Assembly (NCBI RefSeq): GCF_001190925.1 | Contig: NZ_CP011072.1 | Location: 2,666,001 to 2,730,000 of the forward strand | Direction: 5' to 3' | From: Azoarcus sp. CIB | GTDB taxonomy: Bacteria; Pseudomonadota; Gammaproteobacteria; Burkholderiales; Rhodocyclaceae | Length of the DNA: 64,000 bases | In this document: positions 45,034-62,521 of the stretch, piece by piece | Position numbering within the stretch: position 1 is the first letter of the stretch | How the letters are laid out: each line of letters begins with the position of its first letter | The notes under the pieces: generated by a model | Seen by the model: only the letters and a program-made list of their open reading frames with translations | What the model was told of the DNA's origin: nothing | Database searches by the model: none | Program-made: the position numbers and the translations under genes

Positions 45034-46428
45034 ATGGACAGAAAATCAAACCCGAAACTCTCGGACGGCACACTGCTTTCCGACCTGATCAACCTCGAAA
45101 CCCGCGAAGTCAAGATGCGGGCGCTTTCCGATCCCGAACTGTTCGAGCTCGAGATGGAGCGCATCTTCGCCAAGACCTGGGTATTCCTGGGGCACGAAAC
45201 CGAAATCCCGAACAAGGGCGATTTCGTCGTCCGCGACATGGGATCGGATTCCGTGCTGATGGCACGCGGGGCGGACGGCGAGGTGTACGTCTCCCTCAAC
45301 GTCTGCCCCCATCGGGGCATGAAGATCTCGACCCATGACGTGGGTAACACGATGACTCACGTCTGTATCTACCACGGCTGGGCATTCAAGCCGAACGGCG
45401 ACTTTATCGGCGCGCCGGTCGAGAAGGAATGTATGCACGGGAAGATGATGACCAAGCAGGAACTCGGCCTGAAGAAGGCGCGCGTCGCGATCTATGGCGG
45501 CTTGGTCTTCGCGACGTGGAACGTCGAGGGCCCTAGCTTCGAGGACTTCCTCGGCGACGCGAAATGGTATTTCGACACGCTCTGGTGCCGCACAGACAAG
45601 GGCATGGAAGTGCTGGGTCCCCCGCAGCGTTTCACGATCCGTGCGAACTGGAAGACTGCCTGCGAGCAGTCGGCGTCGGACGGATTCCATGTTCTGACCC
45701 TGCACCGCTGGCTATCGGAAGTCGGCCCCTATCGCAAGCCGGGCAGCGAAGGTGGCGGCGGCGACCTGACACCGGAGATGTACGGCACCGAGGTCTACAC
45801 CGCGCACGCACATACCATGCGATGCATCGAGCTGGACCGCAAGATCCGACGCCTGACGGGGAAGGACCCGAGCGAGTTGTCGATCAAGGAGAAACTCGAG
45901 GCGCTGCCCCCGCCGGGCATCACGCCCGAGATGCTGCCGGAAGTGCTCCGTCGCTTCAGCGATGACCAGCTGCGCGTCATGGCCTGGCGTCCGCCCCAGG
46001 TGGGCAACTTCTTTCCCAACGGGCTGTTCGAGTTCGTCTACATCCCCTCGCCCGATGGCGTGATCGGGGTCATGGCGCTGCACGCCTATGTCCCGAAGGG
46101 GCCGGACAAGCTGGAATTCGTGAACTGGATCCTGGCCGAGAAGGACACTCCGCCGGAACTCAAGGCCAAGATGCTGCGCCTCGGCGTCCAACTCCTGGGC
46201 ACCTCGGGGATGGTCGAGCAGGACGATTCGGACACCTGGCCGCACCAGACGCTCGCGGCGAAGGGTGCCGTGAGCAAGCACATCACGATGAAGTATCAGT
46301 CGATGTACGAGAACAACAGGCTCGAAGGCTGGCCGGGCCCTGGCGATGTCGGTGACGGCTTCACGAAGGACGACACCCAGTGGCGCTGGTGGGAATACTG
46401 GTACGAACTGATGACTGCCGAGAACTGA
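45034..46428 (+). CDS. Aromatic-ring-hydroxylating Rieske oxygenase, large (alpha) subunit
   Basis: 464 residues. The Rieske [2Fe-2S] ligands are in CPHRGMK and CIYHGWAF; the mononuclear iron site is in ASDGFHVLTLH (bridging Asp plus two His). The N-terminal length and pairing with a beta subunit 40 bases later make it a classical alpha-beta oxygenase that inserts O2 into an aromatic or alicyclic ring. No dedicated ferredoxin or reductase gene adjoins; fdxA is 6 kb away. Ribosome site AAGGAGGAGG. Confidence 0.94.
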   Translation: MDRKSNPKLSDGTLLSDLINLETREVKMRALSDPELFELEMERIFAKTWVFLGHETEIPNKGDFVVRDMGSDSVLMARGADGEVYVSLNVCPHRGMKISTHDVGNTMTHVCIYHGWAFKPNGDFIGAPVEKECMHGKMMTKQELGLKKARVAIYGGLVFATWNVEGPSFEDFLGDAKWYFDTLWCRTDKGMEVLGPPQRFTIRANWKTACEQSASDGFHVLTLHRWLSEVGPYRKPGSEGGGGDLTPEMYGTEVYTAHAHTMRCIELDRKIRRLTGKDPSELSIKEKLEALPPPGITPEMLPEVLRRFSDDQLRVMAWRPPQVGNFFPNGLFEFVYIPSPDGVIGVMALHAYVPKGPDKLEFVNWILAEKDTPPELKAKMLRLGVQLLGTSGMVEQDDSDTWPHQTLAAKGAVSKHITMKYQSMYENNRLEGWPGPGDVGDGFTKDDTQWRWWEYWYELMTAEN

Positions 46429-46467
46429 TCACAGCGCGACTACTTACCCCTATTTCAGGAGACCTCC

Positions 46468-47037
46468 ATGCTTCAGCAACTGCTCGAACCGACTCCGCTG
46501 CCGCCCTCGATCAAGGCGAACCGTATTCCCTCCGGCAGCGATACCTACAACGAGGTGCTCGACTTCCTTTATGACGAAGCCGAAATGCTCGACAACCTGC
46601 GCCTCGGCGAATGGGCGGAGCTGCTCACCAAGGACCTCGAATACAACGCGCCCCTGCGCCATACCCGTTCGACGTCCCAGTTCGACCAGACCTATTCGCG
46701 CAACGTCCAGCACCTACACGAGAATTACGGCTCGATGCTCATGCGGGTCAAGCGCATTACCGACACCAAGAGCGCCTGGGGCGAGGATCCTCCATCGCGC
46801 ATCAAGCGTCTGGTCACGAACGTACGCGTCTACCGAATCGACGACAGCGATGACCTGAAGGTCGAGAGCTATCTGCTCCTTACACGCAGCCGTTTCGATT
46901 TCGACTACTTCGACCTGATCCCCTGCGTCCGCCACGACGTTCTGCGCCGCGAGGATGGCGCGCTGAAACTCGCTCGCCGCGAGATCCTGCTCGACCAGGT
47001 CGTCATCGGCACCCCCAACCTGGGCGTGATCCTTTAG
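46468..47037 (+). CDS. Aromatic-ring-hydroxylating oxygenase, small (beta) subunit
   Basis: 189 residues of the SnoaL/NTF2-like beta-subunit fold: EVLDFLYDEAEMLDNLRLGEW at the start, RLVTNVRVYRIDDSDDL in the middle, and LKLARREILLDQVVIGTPN at the end. It has a structural role in an alpha3beta3 oxygenase. AGGAGACCTCC precedes the ATG. Confidence 0.93.
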   Translation: MLQQLLEPTPLPPSIKANRIPSGSDTYNEVLDFLYDEAEMLDNLRLGEWAELLTKDLEYNAPLRHTRSTSQFDQTYSRNVQHLHENYGSMLMRVKRITDTKSAWGEDPPSRIKRLVTNVRVYRIDDSDDLKVESYLLLTRSRFDFDYFDLIPCVRHDVLRREDGALKLARREILLDQVVIGTPNLGVIL

Positions 47038-51704: not shown

Positions 51705-52748
51705 TCAGCCCCGCATGCCGAGCACTGCCGAAATGTCGGCACTCGGGTCGGCATCGGCGCCGTAGCCGAAGTCCCCGCGCTGCTGCCTCTCGGCGAGACG
51801 CATCATCAGCAATCGGTAGCGATTGCCGGGGCCGTCGAAACGCGAGCTTAGGTCGCGGCGCTCGGTGGACTCGAAATAGCGCGCGTTCTGAGGGCGCAGC
51901 ACCGAGTTGTCCTGTGGCTGGATCACGTAGGAGATGCGCGGCATCAGCCAGCGAAACGGTGCCGGCGCGTGGACAGTGTAGTTCGTCTGGTCAACACGAG
52001 AACGGTGCTTGCCGACAGGCACAAAGGGCTGCACGTTCGGAATCGGATAGCCCGGGGTAAAGTTCGGGTAAGAGATGCACACGTTGTTGCGCAGATGGAC
52101 ATGCAGAACTGCGCGCAGATCCTGGTACTGGGCGCGTACGCCTCCGATCCAGCGCATCACCGGTGCCACCGACTTGCGGGTGACGTTGCGGATGCGAGTC
52201 ACCGTCTCGGAGGTCGAATGGACCTCGACGACATCGTTCTCGGACTGGCCGTCACCGATCGCATTGGCATGCAGAAAGTCGGCATGTGTCAGATCGATGA
52301 GGTTCTCGACGGACAGCGGCGAGGCCGCATCGAAGCGCACCGCGCGCTGCGTGTAGCGGGGGATCCCCTGACCATCGGGGGGCAGGAAGGGGATGCTCGG
52401 GATCAGTTCCTCGTGCGCGTTATCGGGGTTTCCGTACCACGCCCAGATATACCCGTAGCGCTCGACAGCCGGATAGAAACCGGAGCCGTTCGTGAAGGCA
52501 CTTGCGCCGGCGCGCATCGCGTCAAGGCGGTCGGGGCGAAACTCGGCCGCATATAACCTCACGCCGTCGCGCCATAGATATACGTCCTGCGCATGGACGA
52601 TACGGCGTACCGCCCGCTCACCGATGTCCGCACTGTAGGCGACGGGAAACCAGGTGTCGCGCAGATCGAGATTGATCGGTACCCAGTCGCGCTTGGAGGT
52701 CGCCTCCGCTTCGCGCCCTGCCGCATCCATCATCGGGACTTCGCTCAT
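51705..52748 (-). CDS. Rieske-oxygenase-like protein with iron site but no Rieske cluster ligands
   Basis: 347 residues. The start at 52748 follows GGAGAGG. The catalytic iron site is intact: D152-L-T-H155-A-D-F-L-H160 within the VENLIDLTH motif. The N-terminal part keeps Rieske-domain framing (TWFPVAYSADIG, VYLWRDGVRLYAAEF, ERYGYIWAWYG), but the two C-x-H and C-x2-H ligand loops are gone, replaced by a short linker at about 70-92. It overlaps by ATGA the gene for a protein with the opposite loss. On its own it has no route for electrons; it is probably active only as a hetero-oligomer. Confidence 0.88.
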   Translation of the reverse strand: MSEVPMMDAAGREAEATSKRDWVPINLDLRDTWFPVAYSADIGERAVRRIVHAQDVYLWRDGVRLYAAEFRPDRLDAMRAGASAFTNGSGFYPAVERYGYIWAWYGNPDNAHEELIPSIPFLPPDGQGIPRYTQRAVRFDAASPLSVENLIDLTHADFLHANAIGDGQSENDVVEVHSTSETVTRIRNVTRKSVAPVMRWIGGVRAQYQDLRAVLHVHLRNNVCISYPNFTPGYPIPNVQPFVPVGKHRSRVDQTNYTVHAPAPFRWLMPRISYVIQPQDNSVLRPQNARYFESTERRDLSSRFDGPGNRYRLLMMRLAERQQRGDFGYGADADPSADISAVLGMRG

Positions 52749-53701
52749 ACTGCGCACCTCTCCTGCACGGTCACCACGCGCCCGGCCGGCGTCCTCGTAT
52801 CGGTCTTCGCCAATCTGCGATCTCGTGACGGTGCGACTTCGAGTGCCGCCACGGCTGCGCCGTCGATTTGGGGGAAGATTGCGAACGGAGCACGTCCGAT
52901 CGCCCGCGCGATTCGCCACCGCCACGACAGCGGCGCTGGCGTGGCATGAAGAAAACCGCGCCAGACCAGACTGGTGGTACCCCGCCTGTTCTCGCTGGCA
53001 GCGATGAAGATCGTGACGAGCGGATCTTCTTCGGCGCTGAGGAGTTCCACGCGAATGTCGCCGCCCCTTACCGGTACGCGAGTACGTACCCACAGCGAAT
53101 GGTCTCGCACGAAGGCCGGCCCATTTCCCTTGCCCTTCCACACCGCGCCTCGATCGAGGACAAGATGCTCGCCGTCGCGGCGCGGATCGCCGAGGAAGAA
53201 ATCGGTGATGTGCACGCCGGGGAAGGAAAGCAGGCATTCCGGGCCGTCGAGCATCACGTCGAGATATTGCTCGAACGCGATATTGGCCACTGTTGAACCG
53301 GTCTGTTCGCGACCTGCCGCGCGATACGACGCGCCCGGCAATACGGCGGCGGGAGTTCCCGCCCCCCGCCAGACGTGGATGAAGCCGTTCGCCTCGGCCG
53401 CCGGAAAGGCGCGCGCCGCATAACGCGCCGGCACCCGCTCATCGCGACGCAGGTTGGGAATGTCATTGCACAGGCCCGTCGCGCCGTCGAAGGTCCAGCC
53501 GTGGTAGGGGCACTGCAGACCACCAGGTTTCACGGGTCCGGGCGACAGCGGCACACGCCGGTGCGGACACCGGTCCTCCAGCGCGAACACTACGCCCCTC
53601 CCGTCGCGAAACACGGCGAGTTGCTCGCCTTCGCAGGTCACCGCGAGCGCCTTGTCACCTTGCACCGCCTCGGACAGCGCGACCGCCCACCATCGTCCCA
53701 T
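52745..53701 (-). CDS. Rieske-oxygenase-like protein with Rieske cluster but no mononuclear iron site
   Basis: 318 residues. The start at 53701 follows GGGGAGG. The Rieske ligands are complete: C45-P-H47-R and C64-P-Y-H67-G-W. At the place of the iron-binding D-x2-H-x4-H it reads D148-V-M-L151-D-G-P-E-C156, so both histidines are lost (Leu and Cys). It cannot activate O2 alone but could feed electrons to the neighbouring subunit. It is coupled by ATGA to the iron-only partner and lies 26 bases after the MDR gene. Confidence 0.88.
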   Translation of the reverse strand: MGRWWAVALSEAVQGDKALAVTCEGEQLAVFRDGRGVVFALEDRCPHRRVPLSPGPVKPGGLQCPYHGWTFDGATGLCNDIPNLRRDERVPARYAARAFPAAEANGFIHVWRGAGTPAAVLPGASYRAAGREQTGSTVANIAFEQYLDVMLDGPECLLSFPGVHITDFFLGDPRRDGEHLVLDRGAVWKGKGNGPAFVRDHSLWVRTRVPVRGGDIRVELLSAEEDPLVTIFIAASENRRGTTSLVWRGFLHATPAPLSWRWRIARAIGRAPFAIFPQIDGAAVAALEVAPSRDRRLAKTDTRTPAGRVVTVQERCAV

Positions 53702-56373: not shown

Positions 56374-57339
56374 TCAGACCTCCTCGAACTCGATGAGCTG
56401 CCCGCGCATCTCGCTCGGATCGATCCGGATCATCGCGCCGCCGCCGACGGCTTCGGACTCCTCGATCCATTGGAAACGGGTCCCGCGCGCGCGCAAGTCC
56501 TCGGCCTTGGCCTTGAGGCCGCTCACCGCGATGCGAATGTAGTAAAGCCCCGGCCCCCAGTTGTTCAGGTACAGGCCCGCGTCGCTGTTCCAGCGGCTGG
56601 GCTGGATCACGTCAAGGCTGGCGCTGTTGGCCACGGTAAAGGGCATCGTCGCGCGGCGGTATCCCTCGCGATGCAGCGCTTCGACTTCGCCGCTCGGCTC
56701 CCAGTCGAGATTCGTCGAACAGCAGCGCAGCGTCTCGTCCAGATCGCGGACAAGGAATCCGCGCGCACTGACGCGCACCATGTCGCCCGGCTTCGGGTCG
56801 CGCGGCTGCATGGGTTCCGCGGCGAATGTCTCGGACGGCATCTGCAGCGGTTCGGTCGGCATCACCTCGATGCACAGGCCGCCATCCACCACCGGGGTGT
56901 AACGCGGCCGCTCTGGCGTCGCGCCGAGCCACAACCGGTCGAACGGCATGTCCGGCGTGCGCTGGGCCATCCGGAACGGCAACCCACGCCGCATCAGCTT
57001 GTCGACAAAGGCGTCGAATTTCGGCCCTTGCAGCGCGAGCACGACCGAGTGCGTGAGCATCGGACGATGGCGTCCCTGGTAGTCCTTCAGGCTTTCGAGG
57101 AACTCGTGGAACATCGGGTCGCCGGGGTTCTCGCGATCCAGATGCCATTGCGGCTCGAGCCGGGTCGGAGACACCGCCAGCGACTTGTGCACGCGCAGGA
57201 AATGCGCGACGTAGGGATGATCGTCGAACGCCTGACGCCAGTTTGGATGGCCATGCACGCCGAGCTTGTTCACCAGCCGCGCAGCCATGTCGTCGGGATC
57301 AGGCAGCATCATGTCGGCACTCAGCAAGAGGTCGAACAT
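56374..57339 (-). CDS. Large VOC-fold protein, possible dioxygenase or hydratase-like enzyme
   Basis: 321 residues, twice a single VOC module. The C-terminal half reads like a VOC domain (NWGPGLYYIRIAV, RGTRFQWIEESEAVGGGAMIRIDP, IEFEE). The N-terminal half has VHGHPNWRQAF and HRPMLTHSVVLALQGP. Typical extradiol ligands cannot be placed with confidence. It is co-directional with the hydratase gene, which begins two bases after its stop. Function unknown. Confidence 0.7.
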   Translation of the reverse strand: MFDLLLSADMMLPDPDDMAARLVNKLGVHGHPNWRQAFDDHPYVAHFLRVHKSLAVSPTRLEPQWHLDRENPGDPMFHEFLESLKDYQGRHRPMLTHSVVLALQGPKFDAFVDKLMRRGLPFRMAQRTPDMPFDRLWLGATPERPRYTPVVDGGLCIEVMPTEPLQMPSETFAAEPMQPRDPKPGDMVRVSARGFLVRDLDETLRCCSTNLDWEPSGEVEALHREGYRRATMPFTVANSASLDVIQPSRWNSDAGLYLNNWGPGLYYIRIAVSGLKAKAEDLRARGTRFQWIEESEAVGGGAMIRIDPSEMRGQLIEFEEV

Positions 57340-57420: not shown

Positions 57421-59868
57421 TCAGGCCGCCGCGCGCAAAAGGGTTCCGCGTGCGCCGCTCGGTTCGCGCGGGTTGAGCATGAAATGCGACAGCGCCGGGA
57501 TCAGGATCAGGGCACCGAGCATGTTCCACAGGAACATGAACGTCAGCAGGATCCCCATGTCGGCCTGGAACTTGATCGGCGACCATGCCCAGGTGATCAC
57601 GCCGGCAGCCATCGTGAGTCCCACCAACGCGACCACCTTGCCGGTGAAATCGAGCGACTTGCGATAGGCATCGCGCAAGCTTCCCCCGCGGCGCTGGACG
57701 GCAATCTGCACGCTCAGCAGATAAAGCGCGTAGTCGACACCGACACCGACGCCGACCGCGATGACCGGCAGGGTCGCGACCTTGAGTCCGATACCGAGCC
57801 AGACCATCAGCGCCTTGCAGAGGATCGTGGTGATGACGAGCGGGATCAGTGCGACGATCGTCGCGCGAACGCTGCGGAACGTGATCAGGCACAGCAGCGC
57901 CGTTGCACCATAGACCGCGAGATACATTGTGACGATGCTCTTCTGTACCTCGATGTTGGTCGCCGCCTCGATACCAGCGCTGCCCGCAGCCAGCAGGAAC
58001 TGCACCGGCTCCTTTGCATCGGGCGCGGTATTGTTGGCAGCCGCGTACGCTTCCGCAGTCTGCAGGATGCGTCCCACGGTATCCGCCTTGTGGTCCTTCA
58101 GGTAGGCGACCAGGGGCGACACGGAGCAACTCTGGTTCGTGATGTCCGGCGTCGCGATCACGGCTGCCGACACGGAGCCGTCGGTGATCGACTGGTTACG
58201 GCTGATCGTGAGCCACTTGCCACTGCCCTCGAACATCGCCGAGGTCACGAAACGCACCGTTTCGGCCAGTGAGGTCGTCGTCTGGACCGCCGGATCCTGC
58301 CGCAGCAGTTGTGCCAGCCCGTCCATCTTCTGCAGGCTCGAATACAGACGACAGCCCTCGTCGCCGGTCTTCATGATGACCACGAACTGGTCGCTGGAGA
58401 GCCCGTAGTGTTCCGTGATGTATGCGTTGTCGCGGTTGTAGCGCGACTCGGGCCGAAGTTCGGGCGCCCCGGCATCCAGATCTCCGATGCGAAGGTCCTG
58501 CATGACGATTGCAGAGACGACGGTCACGACCGCGGCAATGGCGATGACCGGAATCGCCCACCTCCGCTCGGTGAGTTGGTCCAAACCGTGCCAGATCCGC
58601 CCCGGCAACGAACGCCGCCCGCCCGCCTTCATGTCGTCCGCCGTGGCATGCCGGATGGCCGATTCGCTCACGCCGAGATAGGAGAGTGCGACCGGGATGA
58701 GGAAAAGCTTCGTGAAGATCAGGACCGAAACGCCGACGCTGGTTGTCAGGGCCAGATCGCGGATAACCGGGATGTCGATGATGATCAGTACAGCAAAGCC
58801 GACGATGTTCGCCAGCAGTGCCGTGAGACCGGCCATGAACAGGCGCCGGAAGGTGTAGCGTGACGCGACGTACTTGTGGGTGCCGCGGCCAATATCCTGG
58901 ATGATGCCGTTCATCTTCTGCGCGCCGTGCGACAGCCCGATGGCGAAGATCAGGAAAGGCACCAGGATCGAATACGGATCGAGCTCATACCCGAGCAACT
59001 GCATCAGCCCGAGCAGCCACACCACGCCGATCACGGCGACCGTCACAAGAAGCATCGTGCTGCGCACGCAGCGGGTGTAGAGATAGACGAAGAACGCGGC
59101 AATGACGACTGACACCGCGAAGAACATCATCACCTCGCGCAGGCCCGCGATCAGATCGCCGACGATCTTCGCGAAACCGACGATGTGGATGCCGACCTTG
59201 TCACTCTCGTAGGTGCGGATCTTCGCTTCGAGGGCGTCCGCAAACTCGCCGTAATTCAGCGCTTCACCGGTTTTCGGATGGATCTCCAGCAGCGGCGCCA
59301 CGATCATGCTCGACTTCATATCGTTCGCGACGAGTCTGCCGACGATGCCCGCCTTGCCGATGTTCTCGCGCAGTTTCGCGATCTCGTTTGCGCTACCGTC
59401 GAAGCTCGCGGGCATGACCGCACCGCCGGTGATGCCGTCTTCGGTCACCTCCCGCCAGCGGACGATCGGCATCCAGATCGACTTCATCCACGAACGATCG
59501 ACGCCGGGAATCAGGTAAAGGTCATCATTGACTTTCTTCAGCACGTCGAGGTACCCGGGGTCGAAGACGTCCCCCGACTTGTTCTCCACGACGACCCTGA
59601 TCGTGTTGCCCAGGCCCGGCAACTCGCTTTTGTTATCCAGGTAATTCTTGATGTACGGGCTGCCGAGCGGAATCATCCGCTCGAAATTCGCATTGACCTC
59701 GATGCGCGTCGCGGCGAAGCCGAGTACGAGAGTCGCCACAAGGCATGCCAGGAGCACGACGATGCGATTGTTGAAGATGATGCGCTCGAGCACGCTACCG
59801 GAACCGAGATCGAAGTCCTTCAGGTCCCGAATCACCGGCATCACTCTTTGTTCGCTGTGGCCTGCCAT
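57421..59868 (-). CDS. RND/MMPL-family transporter
   Basis: 815 residues. Two repeats each have one TM, a large periplasmic loop and about five TMs (FFAVSVVIAAFFVYLYTR; TLPVIAVGVGVGVDYALYLLSV). It is the HpnN/MmpL-like single-component class rather than tripartite AcrB. Such genes travel with YCF48, DUF1329 and DUF1302 proteins in Beta- and Gammaproteobacteria that use hydrophobic carbon sources, probably moving lipids or substrate across the envelope. Confidence 0.9.
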   Translation of the reverse strand: MAGHSEQRVMPVIRDLKDFDLGSGSVLERIIFNNRIVVLLACLVATLVLGFAATRIEVNANFERMIPLGSPYIKNYLDNKSELPGLGNTIRVVVENKSGDVFDPGYLDVLKKVNDDLYLIPGVDRSWMKSIWMPIVRWREVTEDGITGGAVMPASFDGSANEIAKLRENIGKAGIVGRLVANDMKSSMIVAPLLEIHPKTGEALNYGEFADALEAKIRTYESDKVGIHIVGFAKIVGDLIAGLREVMMFFAVSVVIAAFFVYLYTRCVRSTMLLVTVAVIGVVWLLGLMQLLGYELDPYSILVPFLIFAIGLSHGAQKMNGIIQDIGRGTHKYVASRYTFRRLFMAGLTALLANIVGFAVLIIIDIPVIRDLALTTSVGVSVLIFTKLFLIPVALSYLGVSESAIRHATADDMKAGGRRSLPGRIWHGLDQLTERRWAIPVIAIAAVVTVVSAIVMQDLRIGDLDAGAPELRPESRYNRDNAYITEHYGLSSDQFVVIMKTGDEGCRLYSSLQKMDGLAQLLRQDPAVQTTTSLAETVRFVTSAMFEGSGKWLTISRNQSITDGSVSAAVIATPDITNQSCSVSPLVAYLKDHKADTVGRILQTAEAYAAANNTAPDAKEPVQFLLAAGSAGIEAATNIEVQKSIVTMYLAVYGATALLCLITFRSVRATIVALIPLVITTILCKALMVWLGIGLKVATLPVIAVGVGVGVDYALYLLSVQIAVQRRGGSLRDAYRKSLDFTGKVVALVGLTMAAGVITWAWSPIKFQADMGILLTFMFLWNMLGALILIPALSHFMLNPREPSGARGTLLRAAA

Positions 59869-59904
59869 GCTGTGTCTCGCAAATTTCAGTATCGGAAGAG
59901 GCCG

Positions 59905-61032
59905 TTACCGGAGGGGCAAACGGATCAGATCAACGCCATTGACCCGGGCGAGCAGGAGCTCTTCCGGGCCGGCCATCGCGGCGGCGAATACCTCGCCGCC
60001 GCGTGGCACCTCGAGCGCCGTCACGCTCGCCCCATCGTCATTACTCAGCAGGACCTGACCGGTTTGGGTCACGAACACCAGCCGTCCCGCGCCGCGGTCC
60101 AATGCGGCAACAAGGCTCGCATCGCTGCCCATGGCGAGAGACGACCAGCTCGCCGCCCCATCGCGGCTGATATAGGCATTGCCGCGCAACCCGTAGGCGA
60201 TCAGCTTCGCGTGCCCTGCCGTGATGCCGAAATACGTACCCTTGTAGGGCGTTTCGACGGTCTCGAACCGGCCCGCGTCCCGATCCAGGCGACGCACCAG
60301 ACCTTGCTCTCCGGCAAGAAACACCCCACCGTCGGGCGTCGGCTCGATCGCATACAGGTGCATGCGACGCCCGTTGTCCGCGCGTTCGATCCAGGGCTCC
60401 CATGTGGCGCCGCCATCCGTCGTATGCAGCAGCAGACCGAAAGCGCCGGCCAGAAAACCCTCGCCACGCTCATTTACGTTGATGTCAAAAAACGGATAGG
60501 CCAGCACGCCCGGCGTCGCGGACTGCTCGGCCGCCATCTCGACGTCCCGCAACACGCGTCCCGCCTCTTCATTGCCCGCATTGGCCAAAGCGCCGTAGTG
60601 TTTGGAGAGCAGCTCGAAGAGCGCATGACCGTCCATCACCCGGGACCAGGTTTCCCCGCCGTTATCCGAACGCAGGACGACTGCATCGTGTCCGAGTGCC
60701 CATGTGGTGCTGCCCGCCCCGAAACGCACCGTCGTCAAGTCTGCGCTCACCGGCACGACGAGCTGGGACCAGTTCCGACCGGCATCGCGTGACAGCAGAA
60801 TGATCCCGCGCGGCCCGACGGCCAGGGCGCGTCCATCCTTGCTTGCGATACCTGACATGGCACCCCGCAAGGACTGGGGAGAGATCACCGCCGGGACGGC
60901 CAATACGTCGCGCACGGCGGAACCTGTGGCGAGCGCCACGCCTGCCGCGCCGAGAACCGCTGCCGCAAGGGTCAGACGCAGACGCCGGCCCGGGACCACG
61001 GAACGGGAGATCGAACGGGTAACGCGATTCAA
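59905..61032 (-). CDS. YCF48/BNR-repeat exported protein
   Basis: 375 residues. The TTG start at 61032 has AAGGAG seven bases upstream. An N-terminal membrane signal (RLRLTLAAAVLGAAGVALA) is followed by beta-propeller repeats with S-x-D-x-G-x-x-W Asp boxes (SRDAGRNW, SDNGGETW, TTDGGATW, SRDGAASW). YCF48-type proteins help assemble envelope complexes. It sits between DUF1329 and the RND transporter and is probably the latter's periplasmic partner. Confidence 0.88.
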   Translation of the reverse strand: MNRVTRSISRSVVPGRRLRLTLAAAVLGAAGVALATGSAVRDVLAVPAVISPQSLRGAMSGIASKDGRALAVGPRGIILLSRDAGRNWSQLVVPVSADLTTVRFGAGSTTWALGHDAVVLRSDNGGETWSRVMDGHALFELLSKHYGALANAGNEEAGRVLRDVEMAAEQSATPGVLAYPFFDINVNERGEGFLAGAFGLLLHTTDGGATWEPWIERADNGRRMHLYAIEPTPDGGVFLAGEQGLVRRLDRDAGRFETVETPYKGTYFGITAGHAKLIAYGLRGNAYISRDGAASWSSLAMGSDASLVAALDRGAGRLVFVTQTGQVLLSNDDGASVTALEVPRGGEVFAAAMAGPEELLLARVNGVDLIRLPLR

Positions 61033-61165
61033 GAGACAACTCCTTGTCGATGCGATCTCCCCGCCCACAACAAGCACCGGGCGGGGGGATCTATCTGGAG
61101 TGAGCCGGAACCGGAAGGGGCAACACGGCAAGCCGCACTGCCCGCTTCCACATGAGGGCTGACGA

Positions 61166-62521
61166 TCAGCGCGCGGTTTCCTGCGCGACGATTGCCTCGG
61201 GGTTGAGTTCGCGGTTGGCCATCGGCGCCTTCAGGACGCCATAACCGCCCACCAGGCCGTCGTTCACCAGCGCGTACATGCCCTTGTTGAAGTCATACAC
61301 CACGTTCTTCACGGTGTAGGGCGCCTGGACGTCGTACAGCTGAACCATCGAGTTGAAGATCGAGCGATACAACTGGCCGCTCTGGTCGAACGCGTCGTAC
61401 AGGCCTGCGCCGTAAGTGTCCTCGTCCAAGTAGTACATGCGCTTGGCGTACACATGGCGGACGCCCGGCTTCAGCGTCGCTTCCACGACCCAGACGCGGT
61501 GAAGCTCCCAACGCCAGCAGGCCGGATTCGGGTGCTTGTCCATGAACTGCTCTTCGACGCCGCAACCGAAATAAAGCTTGTAGGCGTTATAGGGGATGTA
61601 CATCTCCTTCTTGCCGACCAGCTTGAATTCGAAACGGTCCATCTGTCCCGAGAATACGAAGAGCTCGTCGAACAGCGTGACGCCGCCCATGCTCGCGACC
61701 GGTGTGTCGTAGGCGAACTCCGGGGCAAGCTTGATGCGGCGCTGACCCGGCGTGTAGCTCCACGCGCGGCGTGGCTTCTCGGTCGGATCGAGGAAGTCCG
61801 AGAGGCCGGTCGCCTCGCCGGCCTTCCGGATCGGCGCCTGCGTTACCGAGTAGGTGCGCCAGTAGAGCTTTGCGTCGCGGCCGTCCAGGTCGTCATGGTA
61901 GTAGGGCGTCTCTTCCATCGTTTTCTGCTGCGCCGCCATGACCACCTTGCCGTTGGAGTCCACGACCCACGAGCGCGACGACTTGGTGGTCGTATCGGCC
62001 TTGTAGCGAAGCTGCTGATTCCACATCACCTCGTAGCCGGTCTTGGGAATCGGGAACGGCAGACCACCCCGACATGCATCCTCGACGGAGAGCCCGTTCT
62101 TGGCGGTATTGCACGTCGTCGCATTGCGCACCGTGTTGTTCAGGATCTTGGCGGGATAAGACGCCGTACGGTGCGACGGATAGATATCCATATAGAAGCT
62201 CGGGTACTTCTTCAAGAGCTCCTTCTGCCCTTCCGACAGCTTGTCTGCGTGCTGCTGATAGTTCTTGCCGTCAATCCGGAGCAAGGGCTTCTCGTCCTTG
62301 AACGGATCGGCCCAGAAACCGCTGTCGGGCTTGAAGTCGGCCGGAGCCTTGGTCAGCCCCCCGGTGTATTCCGGGATCGTCCCTTCCTTGTTGCCCGCCT
62401 GGATCGCGCCGTACTTGGTTAGCGTCGCACCGAGCTGTTTCGCGTCTTCTGCTGTAACCGCCGCCATCGCTTGGCTCGAGAGGACCGCCGCGGCGGCCCA
62501 TACGAAATTGCGCATCTTCAT
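61166..62521 (-). CDS. DUF1329 exported protein
   Basis: 451 residues with a cleavable signal (FVWAAAAVLSSQAMA). It matches the DUF1329 pattern: TIPEYTGGL near the start, YKLYFGCGVEEQFMDK, and the late EATLKPGVRHVYAKRMYYLDE run. DUF1329 is a LolA/LolB-like outer-membrane lipoprotein-sorting fold of unknown ligand, almost always next to DUF1302. Four cysteines are present. Confidence 0.9.
   Translation of the reverse strand: MKMRNFVWAAAAVLSSQAMAAVTAEDAKQLGATLTKYGAIQAGNKEGTIPEYTGGLTKAPADFKPDSGFWADPFKDEKPLLRIDGKNYQQHADKLSEGQKELLKKYPSFYMDIYPSHRTASYPAKILNNTVRNATTCNTAKNGLSVEDACRGGLPFPIPKTGYEVMWNQQLRYKADTTTKSSRSWVVDSNGKVVMAAQQKTMEETPYYHDDLDGRDAKLYWRTYSVTQAPIRKAGEATGLSDFLDPTEKPRRAWSYTPGQRRIKLAPEFAYDTPVASMGGVTLFDELFVFSGQMDRFEFKLVGKKEMYIPYNAYKLYFGCGVEEQFMDKHPNPACWRWELHRVWVVEATLKPGVRHVYAKRMYYLDEDTYGAGLYDAFDQSGQLYRSIFNSMVQLYDVQAPYTVKNVVYDFNKGMYALVNDGLVGGYGVLKAPMANRELNPEAIVAQETAR

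Follow-up and report, generated by a model that had tools for sequence, protein, structure and literature searches.

Can two oxygenase subunits, each lacking one of the two metal centres of its family, together make up a single enzyme? In Rieske oxygenases electrons are known to pass between identical subunits, and a pair of overlapping genes in Azoarcus sp. CIB raises the question for subunits that differ. Both genes lie on the minus strand of the 64,000-nucleotide stretch analysed here (the window), and all coordinates are positions in this stretch. Gene A (52745..53701) encodes an alpha-type subunit of a Rieske oxygenase, 318 amino acids long, in which the Rieske site is intact and the iron-binding histidines are absent. 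Gene B (51705..52748) encodes a 347 amino acid subunit of the same type with an intact mononuclear iron site, in a VanA_C domain, and without the Rieske ligands. Gene A starts with the ATG at 53701, downstream of a GGGGAGG, and gene B runs from the ATG at 52748 to its end at 51705. The stop of A and the start of B share the four bases ATGA (52745..52748, minus strand), an overlap that suggests coupled translation. The Pfam models divide in the same way: only A matches Rieske (PF00355; 77.9 bits), and only B matches VanA_C (PF19112; 94.1 bits). A first-pass annotation of this DNA had described an overlapping gene pair with mirror-image losses, and the place of both genes, their overlap and the division of the ligands between them are confirmed. 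In Massilia the pair is annotated as “Rieske 2Fe-2S domain-containing protein” and “oxygenase.” Either protein, if expressed singly, would probably appear dead.

Metal ligands of the two proteins

We scanned genome contigs with a profile of six B proteins and kept the best 80 of 96 relatives. Together with five earlier loci this gives 85 loci and, with the window, 85 A and 86 B proteins. The loci are partly redundant (L022 and L036 are one contig, judged by length); the set made non-redundant at 90% identity holds 48 pairs, with identity down to 28% for A and 39% for B. One of the two scan patterns was ENLIDLTH, which is present in 86/86 B proteins; because loci were selected with this pattern its conservation is partly built in, while H160, D280 and the features of A are unaffected.

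In A, the loops that carry the Rieske ligands, C45-P-H47 and C64-x-x-H67 (53501..53569, minus strand), are invariant in all 85 proteins. The former iron helix of A runs from D152 to F160 (53222..53248, minus strand); the aspartate is kept and the histidine positions are replaced. When D152 of A is set against D152 of B, the iron histidine positions correspond to E155 and F160, a register that is our own reading, as a joint alignment put the helix of A in a different one. Position 155 is a histidine in six of the 85 A proteins and position 160 in none. Outside the Rieske loops no histidine occurs in 75% or more of the 48 non-redundant A proteins, so that there is no conserved histidine in this part of the molecule, whatever the register. 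The first-pass annotation had placed the replaced histidines at L151 and C156; the loss itself stands, while these two residues look mis-registered. The aspartate D152 of A (53246-53248, minus strand), which corresponds to the bridging carboxylate, is retained in 85/85 proteins. It is invariant even though A has no iron site for it to bridge.

Protein B shows the opposite pattern. Its iron helix, N149-L-I-D152-L-T-H155-A-D-F-L-H160 (52269..52304, minus strand), has N149, D152, H155 and H160 in 86/86 proteins. A variant of the motif, ENLMDLTHTDFVH, is found in the B protein of L130, a locus reached from A. D280 (51909..51911, minus strand) is the third, carboxylate ligand of the iron by motif; it is an aspartate in all 86 proteins and aligns with the aspartate of canonical oxygenases. 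Q287 is likewise present in 86/86. The Rieske-like domain of B (residues 20-115; 52404..52691, minus strand) lacks both ligand loops, and the CxH..CxxH pattern occurs in none of the 86 B proteins, which bears out the earlier claim that these loops are gone. The ligands given at the outset are likewise correct: C45/H47/C64/H67 for A and D152/H155/H160 for B.

The only cysteines and histidines common to all 48 non-redundant A proteins are the four Rieske ligands, and the only ones common to all 48 B proteins are H155 and H160. This restriction indicates that the losses are not due to chance. Held against the features of a complete oxygenase, the Rieske ligands (CxH...CxxH) are found in 85/85 A and 0/86 B proteins, the mononuclear 2-His-1-carboxylate iron site is absent from A and present in B (86/86), and only the pair has both. 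The bridging carboxylate, whose role is assigned by homology, is present on both sides (D152 in 86/86 B and 85/85 A).

Distribution, selection and ancestry of the pair

How widely does this arrangement occur? Searching with B found one match among 300 genomes of the order, in its own genome only (E-value up to 1E-20), and B is present in three of 199 genomes of the family. The B protein of the window shares 98-99% identity with B in Aromatoleum and Thauera records. Among plasmid records B has matches in 20, and in four of these the match covers 80% or more of the query; A is found in exactly these four (E-value up to 1E-15). The contig scan adds many more taxa: Betaproteobacteria (Aromatoleum, Thauera, Massilia and others), Pseudomonas, Stutzerimonas, Halopseudomonas, many Sphingomonadales and a few others, e.g., Acetobacteraceae. 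This is a broad proteobacterial family with members in many alpha-, beta- and gammaproteobacterial genera.

Gene A lies directly upstream of gene B in 84 of the 85 loci, and the remaining one (L068) is a contig that starts within B. The co-occurrence in other genomes that the first-pass annotation had called for is thus found, and all 48 non-redundant pairs share these losses. No natural fusion of A and B occurs in the 84 loci that hold both, as the best open frames of the two genes differ. Some genomes carry two pairs each, with both genes in each pair: Pseudomonas fluorescens PS662 (L062 and L063), G911 (L128 and L130) and G1099 (L125 and L129).

We also searched from the side of A. Among 369 genomes from the class this gave a single A-family place, that of the window, and among 298 genomes of a Novosphingobium's family (sphingomonads) it gave eight places in six genomes; in both searches only the best six or seven candidates per genome were scored, so that absence there is to be read as incomplete. 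A further eight genomes, reached via known loci, gave eight A-family places, one or more in each of the eight. Pooled, these searches yield 16 distinct places, and a B gene with an intact iron motif adjoins A in 16/16. Nine of the 16 were known before and seven (L124-L130) had no prior route through B, although the scores of L127 and L128 equal those of L090 and L077, with which these two are probably identical. In the eight genomes the A profile scores at least 251.9 bits for the A family and at most 112.8 bits for nine other oxygenase places, so that by profile score the A family is set apart from the other Rieske oxygenases of the same genomes. Neither A alone nor B alone was found within the B-led scan (85 loci) and the 16 A-led places, and the idea of a pair withstands the search for homologues that occur singly. 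The adjacency of A and B in many different bacteria makes it very probable that they function only as a pair. The split state is old and fixed.

We calculated dN/dS for 29 close pairs. The median is 0.087 for the Rieske domain of A, 0.18 for its iron-less domain, 0.09 for the cluster-less domain of B (from 28 of the pairs) and 0.035 for the catalytic domain of B (29 pairs). The iron-less domain of A is the least constrained of the four, with a maximum of 0.53. All four domains are under purifying selection, including both that have no cofactor.

A mirror-tree comparison of A and B gives r = 0.97, a value as high being reached in 0 of 2,000 permutations; any two co-inherited genes would be expected to show such a correlation. 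In a tree whose outgroups were hits of A and the oxygenases of its own genome, A and B each form one group with full SH-aLRT support. A topology that unites A with B, as common descent by one duplication would have it, also passes the AU test (p-AU 0.365), so such a duplication may or may not lie at the origin of the pair. A comparison of the A and B profiles aligned just 80 columns, in the N-terminal part.

A probable two-chain oxygenase, alternatives and similar systems

The AlphaFold2 model of B alone has a pLDDT of 84.5 and a pTM of 0.86. In Foldseek it matches the guaiacol O-demethylase 7qwt and the dicamba monooxygenase DdmC over about 360 columns, with TM scores of 0.66-0.67. These are whole one-chain oxygenases, so the cluster-less N-terminal part of B seems to be placed as in their fold; the model thus predicts both a Rieske-like and a catalytic fold in B. 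For the two proteins together we used an artificial chain in which the L072 stop between A and B was read as tryptophan (alignment of 61 rows, 13 of them paired; best of five models). It has a pLDDT of 85.6 and a pTM of 0.81, a score that is silent on which faces meet, and the matches listed by Foldseek are again Rieske oxygenases. Two domains of the same size without a fixed arrangement would be expected to give a pTM of about 0.5 by our estimate, and a defined arrangement of A and B in the fused chain is therefore likely. For A, the same model provides indirect support for a Rieske-like and a catalytic fold.

Fixed co-occurrence, complementary invariant ligands, purifying selection and the high pTM of the A-B model together lend strong support to the earlier claim that each partner supplies one metal centre. 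We consider it highly probable that A and B form an obligate hetero-oligomeric Rieske non-heme iron oxygenase in which the cluster of A feeds the iron of B across the subunit interface. The physical complex, its geometry and stoichiometry, the electron path and catalysis are the parts of this proposal that we infer. The Rieske cluster of A would receive its electrons from a reductase or from a plant-type [2Fe-2S] ferredoxin, neither of which is linked to the pair in this organism. The electron would then pass the A-B interface via the bridging D152 of B to the mononuclear iron, held by H155, H160 and D280 of B, where O2 would be activated and a substrate seated in the pocket of B oxidized. The iron-less fold of A and the cluster-less Rieske fold of B may have been retained as an assembly scaffold, perhaps also as docking or regulatory surfaces. 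The assembly would probably be a ring resembling the head-to-tail alpha3 trimer. In CntA, where the bridging carboxylate is essential, the distance between the two centres is 44 Å inside one subunit and 12.2 Å from one subunit to the next over the interface (PMC7948474).

Since the cluster comes from A and both iron and bridge come from B, only transfer from A to B could function. A and B cannot be placed alternately around a three-membered ring; A2B or AB2 would contain one productive interface and two that miss a centre. The suggestion in the first-pass annotation that a hetero-oligomer would rebuild exactly the functional interface and nothing else thus does not carry over to such a ring.

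Could A instead be a free electron carrier? As a Rieske ferredoxin of unusual size it would then dock anew on a homo-oligomer of B with every electron, and there would be no stable mixed ring. Small Rieske ferredoxins do serve other oxygenases, and they are among the PDB matches of A; moreover, 21 of the 27 invariant residues of A fall in the Rieske domain, the only domain of A that Pfam detects. However, a simple ferredoxin would need neither the full-length iron-less domain that is under purifying selection in A, nor the bridging aspartate kept in 85/85 proteins, nor the arrangement suggested by the pTM of 0.81 for the fused model, and we regard this explanation as improbable. Still less probable is that A and B are two separate enzymes or regulators of one pathway, B an iron enzyme with another reductant and A a redox sensor. 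Iron centres in other families do function without a Rieske cluster, but the ligand sets of A and B are exactly complementary, in 84 loci the gap between their matched stretches is no more than 81 bases where there is no overlap, and A stays next to B while the context shifts between clades. Decay of two paralogues or sequencing error, which would account for each protein lacking essential ligands of a normal oxygenase, is to our minds ruled out almost completely by ligand conservation (identical losses in 48 non-redundant pairs) and by median dN/dS below 0.2 in every domain of 29 close pairs.

The proposed two-chain oxygenase has counterparts among known systems. The closest in design is the chlorophyllide a oxygenase (MpCAO) of the alga Micromonas pusilla, a single Rieske oxygenase split over two polypeptides, as we propose for A and B. 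Kunugi et al. in 2013 reportedly found the Rieske motif on one chain and the mononuclear iron motif on the other, with both chains required. The same division of motifs is present in A and B, which we set beside MpCAO by description only. MpCAO is active in vitro with VanB; a heterodimer has been suggested for it, and a trimer of dimers is regarded as likely (PMC9615114). In contrast to A and B, which are bacterial, have a B of the VanA_C type and occur in apparently catabolic contexts, MpCAO is eukaryotic and belongs to pigment biosynthesis.

The caffeine N7-demethylase NdmC, cited as a partial precedent in the first-pass annotation, is an apt comparison: like B, it has no cluster of its own, and it is served by the cluster of another protein, the reductase NdmD (PMC4408171). 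In NdmCDE, however, the cluster is fused to that reductase and a GST-like protein, NdmE, is also needed, while A is a second alpha-type subunit with an iron-less catalytic-like domain. A has no reductase domain by Pfam or NCBIfam, and no GST family member is found among the 30 neighbour proteins run through Pfam, which represent part of the neighbour clusters. DdmC and 7qwt, which among solved structures are closest to the pair both in sequence and in the models, differ from A and B in having both centres on a single chain. The best NCBIfam match for both A and B is the 4beta-methylsterol monooxygenase SdmA (NF052579); the scores of 64.1 and 23.7 bits, where the cut-off is 600, make SdmA distant kin.

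Is the pair then new? It had been called unusual and perhaps undescribed. The split design as such already has a precedent in the two-chain MpCAO. No bacterial complementary Rieske pair is described among the literature matches listed, which lie mostly outside subscription journals, and the available portions of PMC13363849 and PMC6157903 contain nothing on split oxygenases. From these comparisons a bacterial, widespread and so far strictly paired version appears to be new. We lean slightly towards the view that A and B represent a large bacterial family of obligate heteromeric Rieske oxygenases that evolved independently, each subunit being powerless alone. If so, a ring of A2B or AB2 would be a natural single-site enzyme, the productive interfaces of an A3B3 assembly would differ from those of the canonical ring, and D152 of A would serve in assembly or gating, not electron transfer. 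With one centre per chain, cluster and iron can be mutated, labelled and mixed separately, which homotrimers do not permit. Stoichiometry and half-site behaviour become directly testable in such a natural pair, as do the way in which electrons flow and the part played by the bridging aspartate.

Genomic context, electron donor and substrate

By Pfam, the neighbours of the pair in the window include a zinc-type dehydrogenase, short-chain dehydrogenases (SDRs), an enoyl-CoA hydratase, YCF48-like and DUF1329 proteins; the protein at 56374-57339 has no Pfam hit. An MFS gene, named via the Massilia annotation of the same cluster, is also nearby. An MMPL transporter and YCF48-like and DUF1329 proteins stand in a row at 57421-62521 (minus strand). 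MMPL and YCF48 clusters adjoin the pair in loci of Massilia, Aromatoleum and Zoogloea too. About 5 kb from the pair, on the opposite strand, is a separate alpha/beta Rieske dioxygenase (45034-47037, plus strand), whose alpha subunit has a distant likeness to HcaE (236.8 bits against a cut-off of 830).

Are certain neighbours shared across loci? No neighbour other than A is constant: the SDR superfamily is the commonest neighbour cluster besides A, in 62 of the 86 loci; all others occur in 28 at most. The gene caller used for neighbours missed A or B in some loci, and the count of their co-occurrence was therefore drawn from a separate locus check. No Fer2 ferredoxin or reductase domain is encoded in the window, and the genome has 16 Fer2 places. 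A neighbour cluster represented by a plant-type Fer2 ferredoxin from L088, the member tested, is present in 28/86 loci, of alpha-, beta- and gammaproteobacteria, and is a candidate electron donor.

A neighbouring dehydrogenase resembles the models for 3-ketosteroid 1-dehydrogenase and 4-oxocyclohexenecarboxylate dehydrogenase, with scores under the cut-off in every case. Other neighbours identified by Pfam and NCBIfam are F420-type LLM oxidoreductases, an acyl-CoA dehydrogenase, a CoA transferase, and MMPL, YCF48 and DUF1329 proteins; a PHROGs search gave no match. The contexts perhaps point to the catabolism of hydrophobic cyclic compounds, with no substrate that we can name. The neighbour set differs on sphingomonad plasmids, where it includes F420 genes, and is different again in Pseudomonas. 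That the pair remains constant while its context changes speaks for an enzyme complete in itself, put to use in more than one pathway.

The presence of genes with F420 biosynthesis annotations in a plasmid-borne cluster seems unusual. On a Croceicoccus marinus plasmid (L024:23568-28797), cofC, cofH, npdG, cofD and cofE lie with LLM oxidoreductases beside the pair, and on a Novosphingobium resinovorum plasmid (L025:20308-24015) the pair is accompanied by cofC, cofH, npdG and LLM oxidoreductases.
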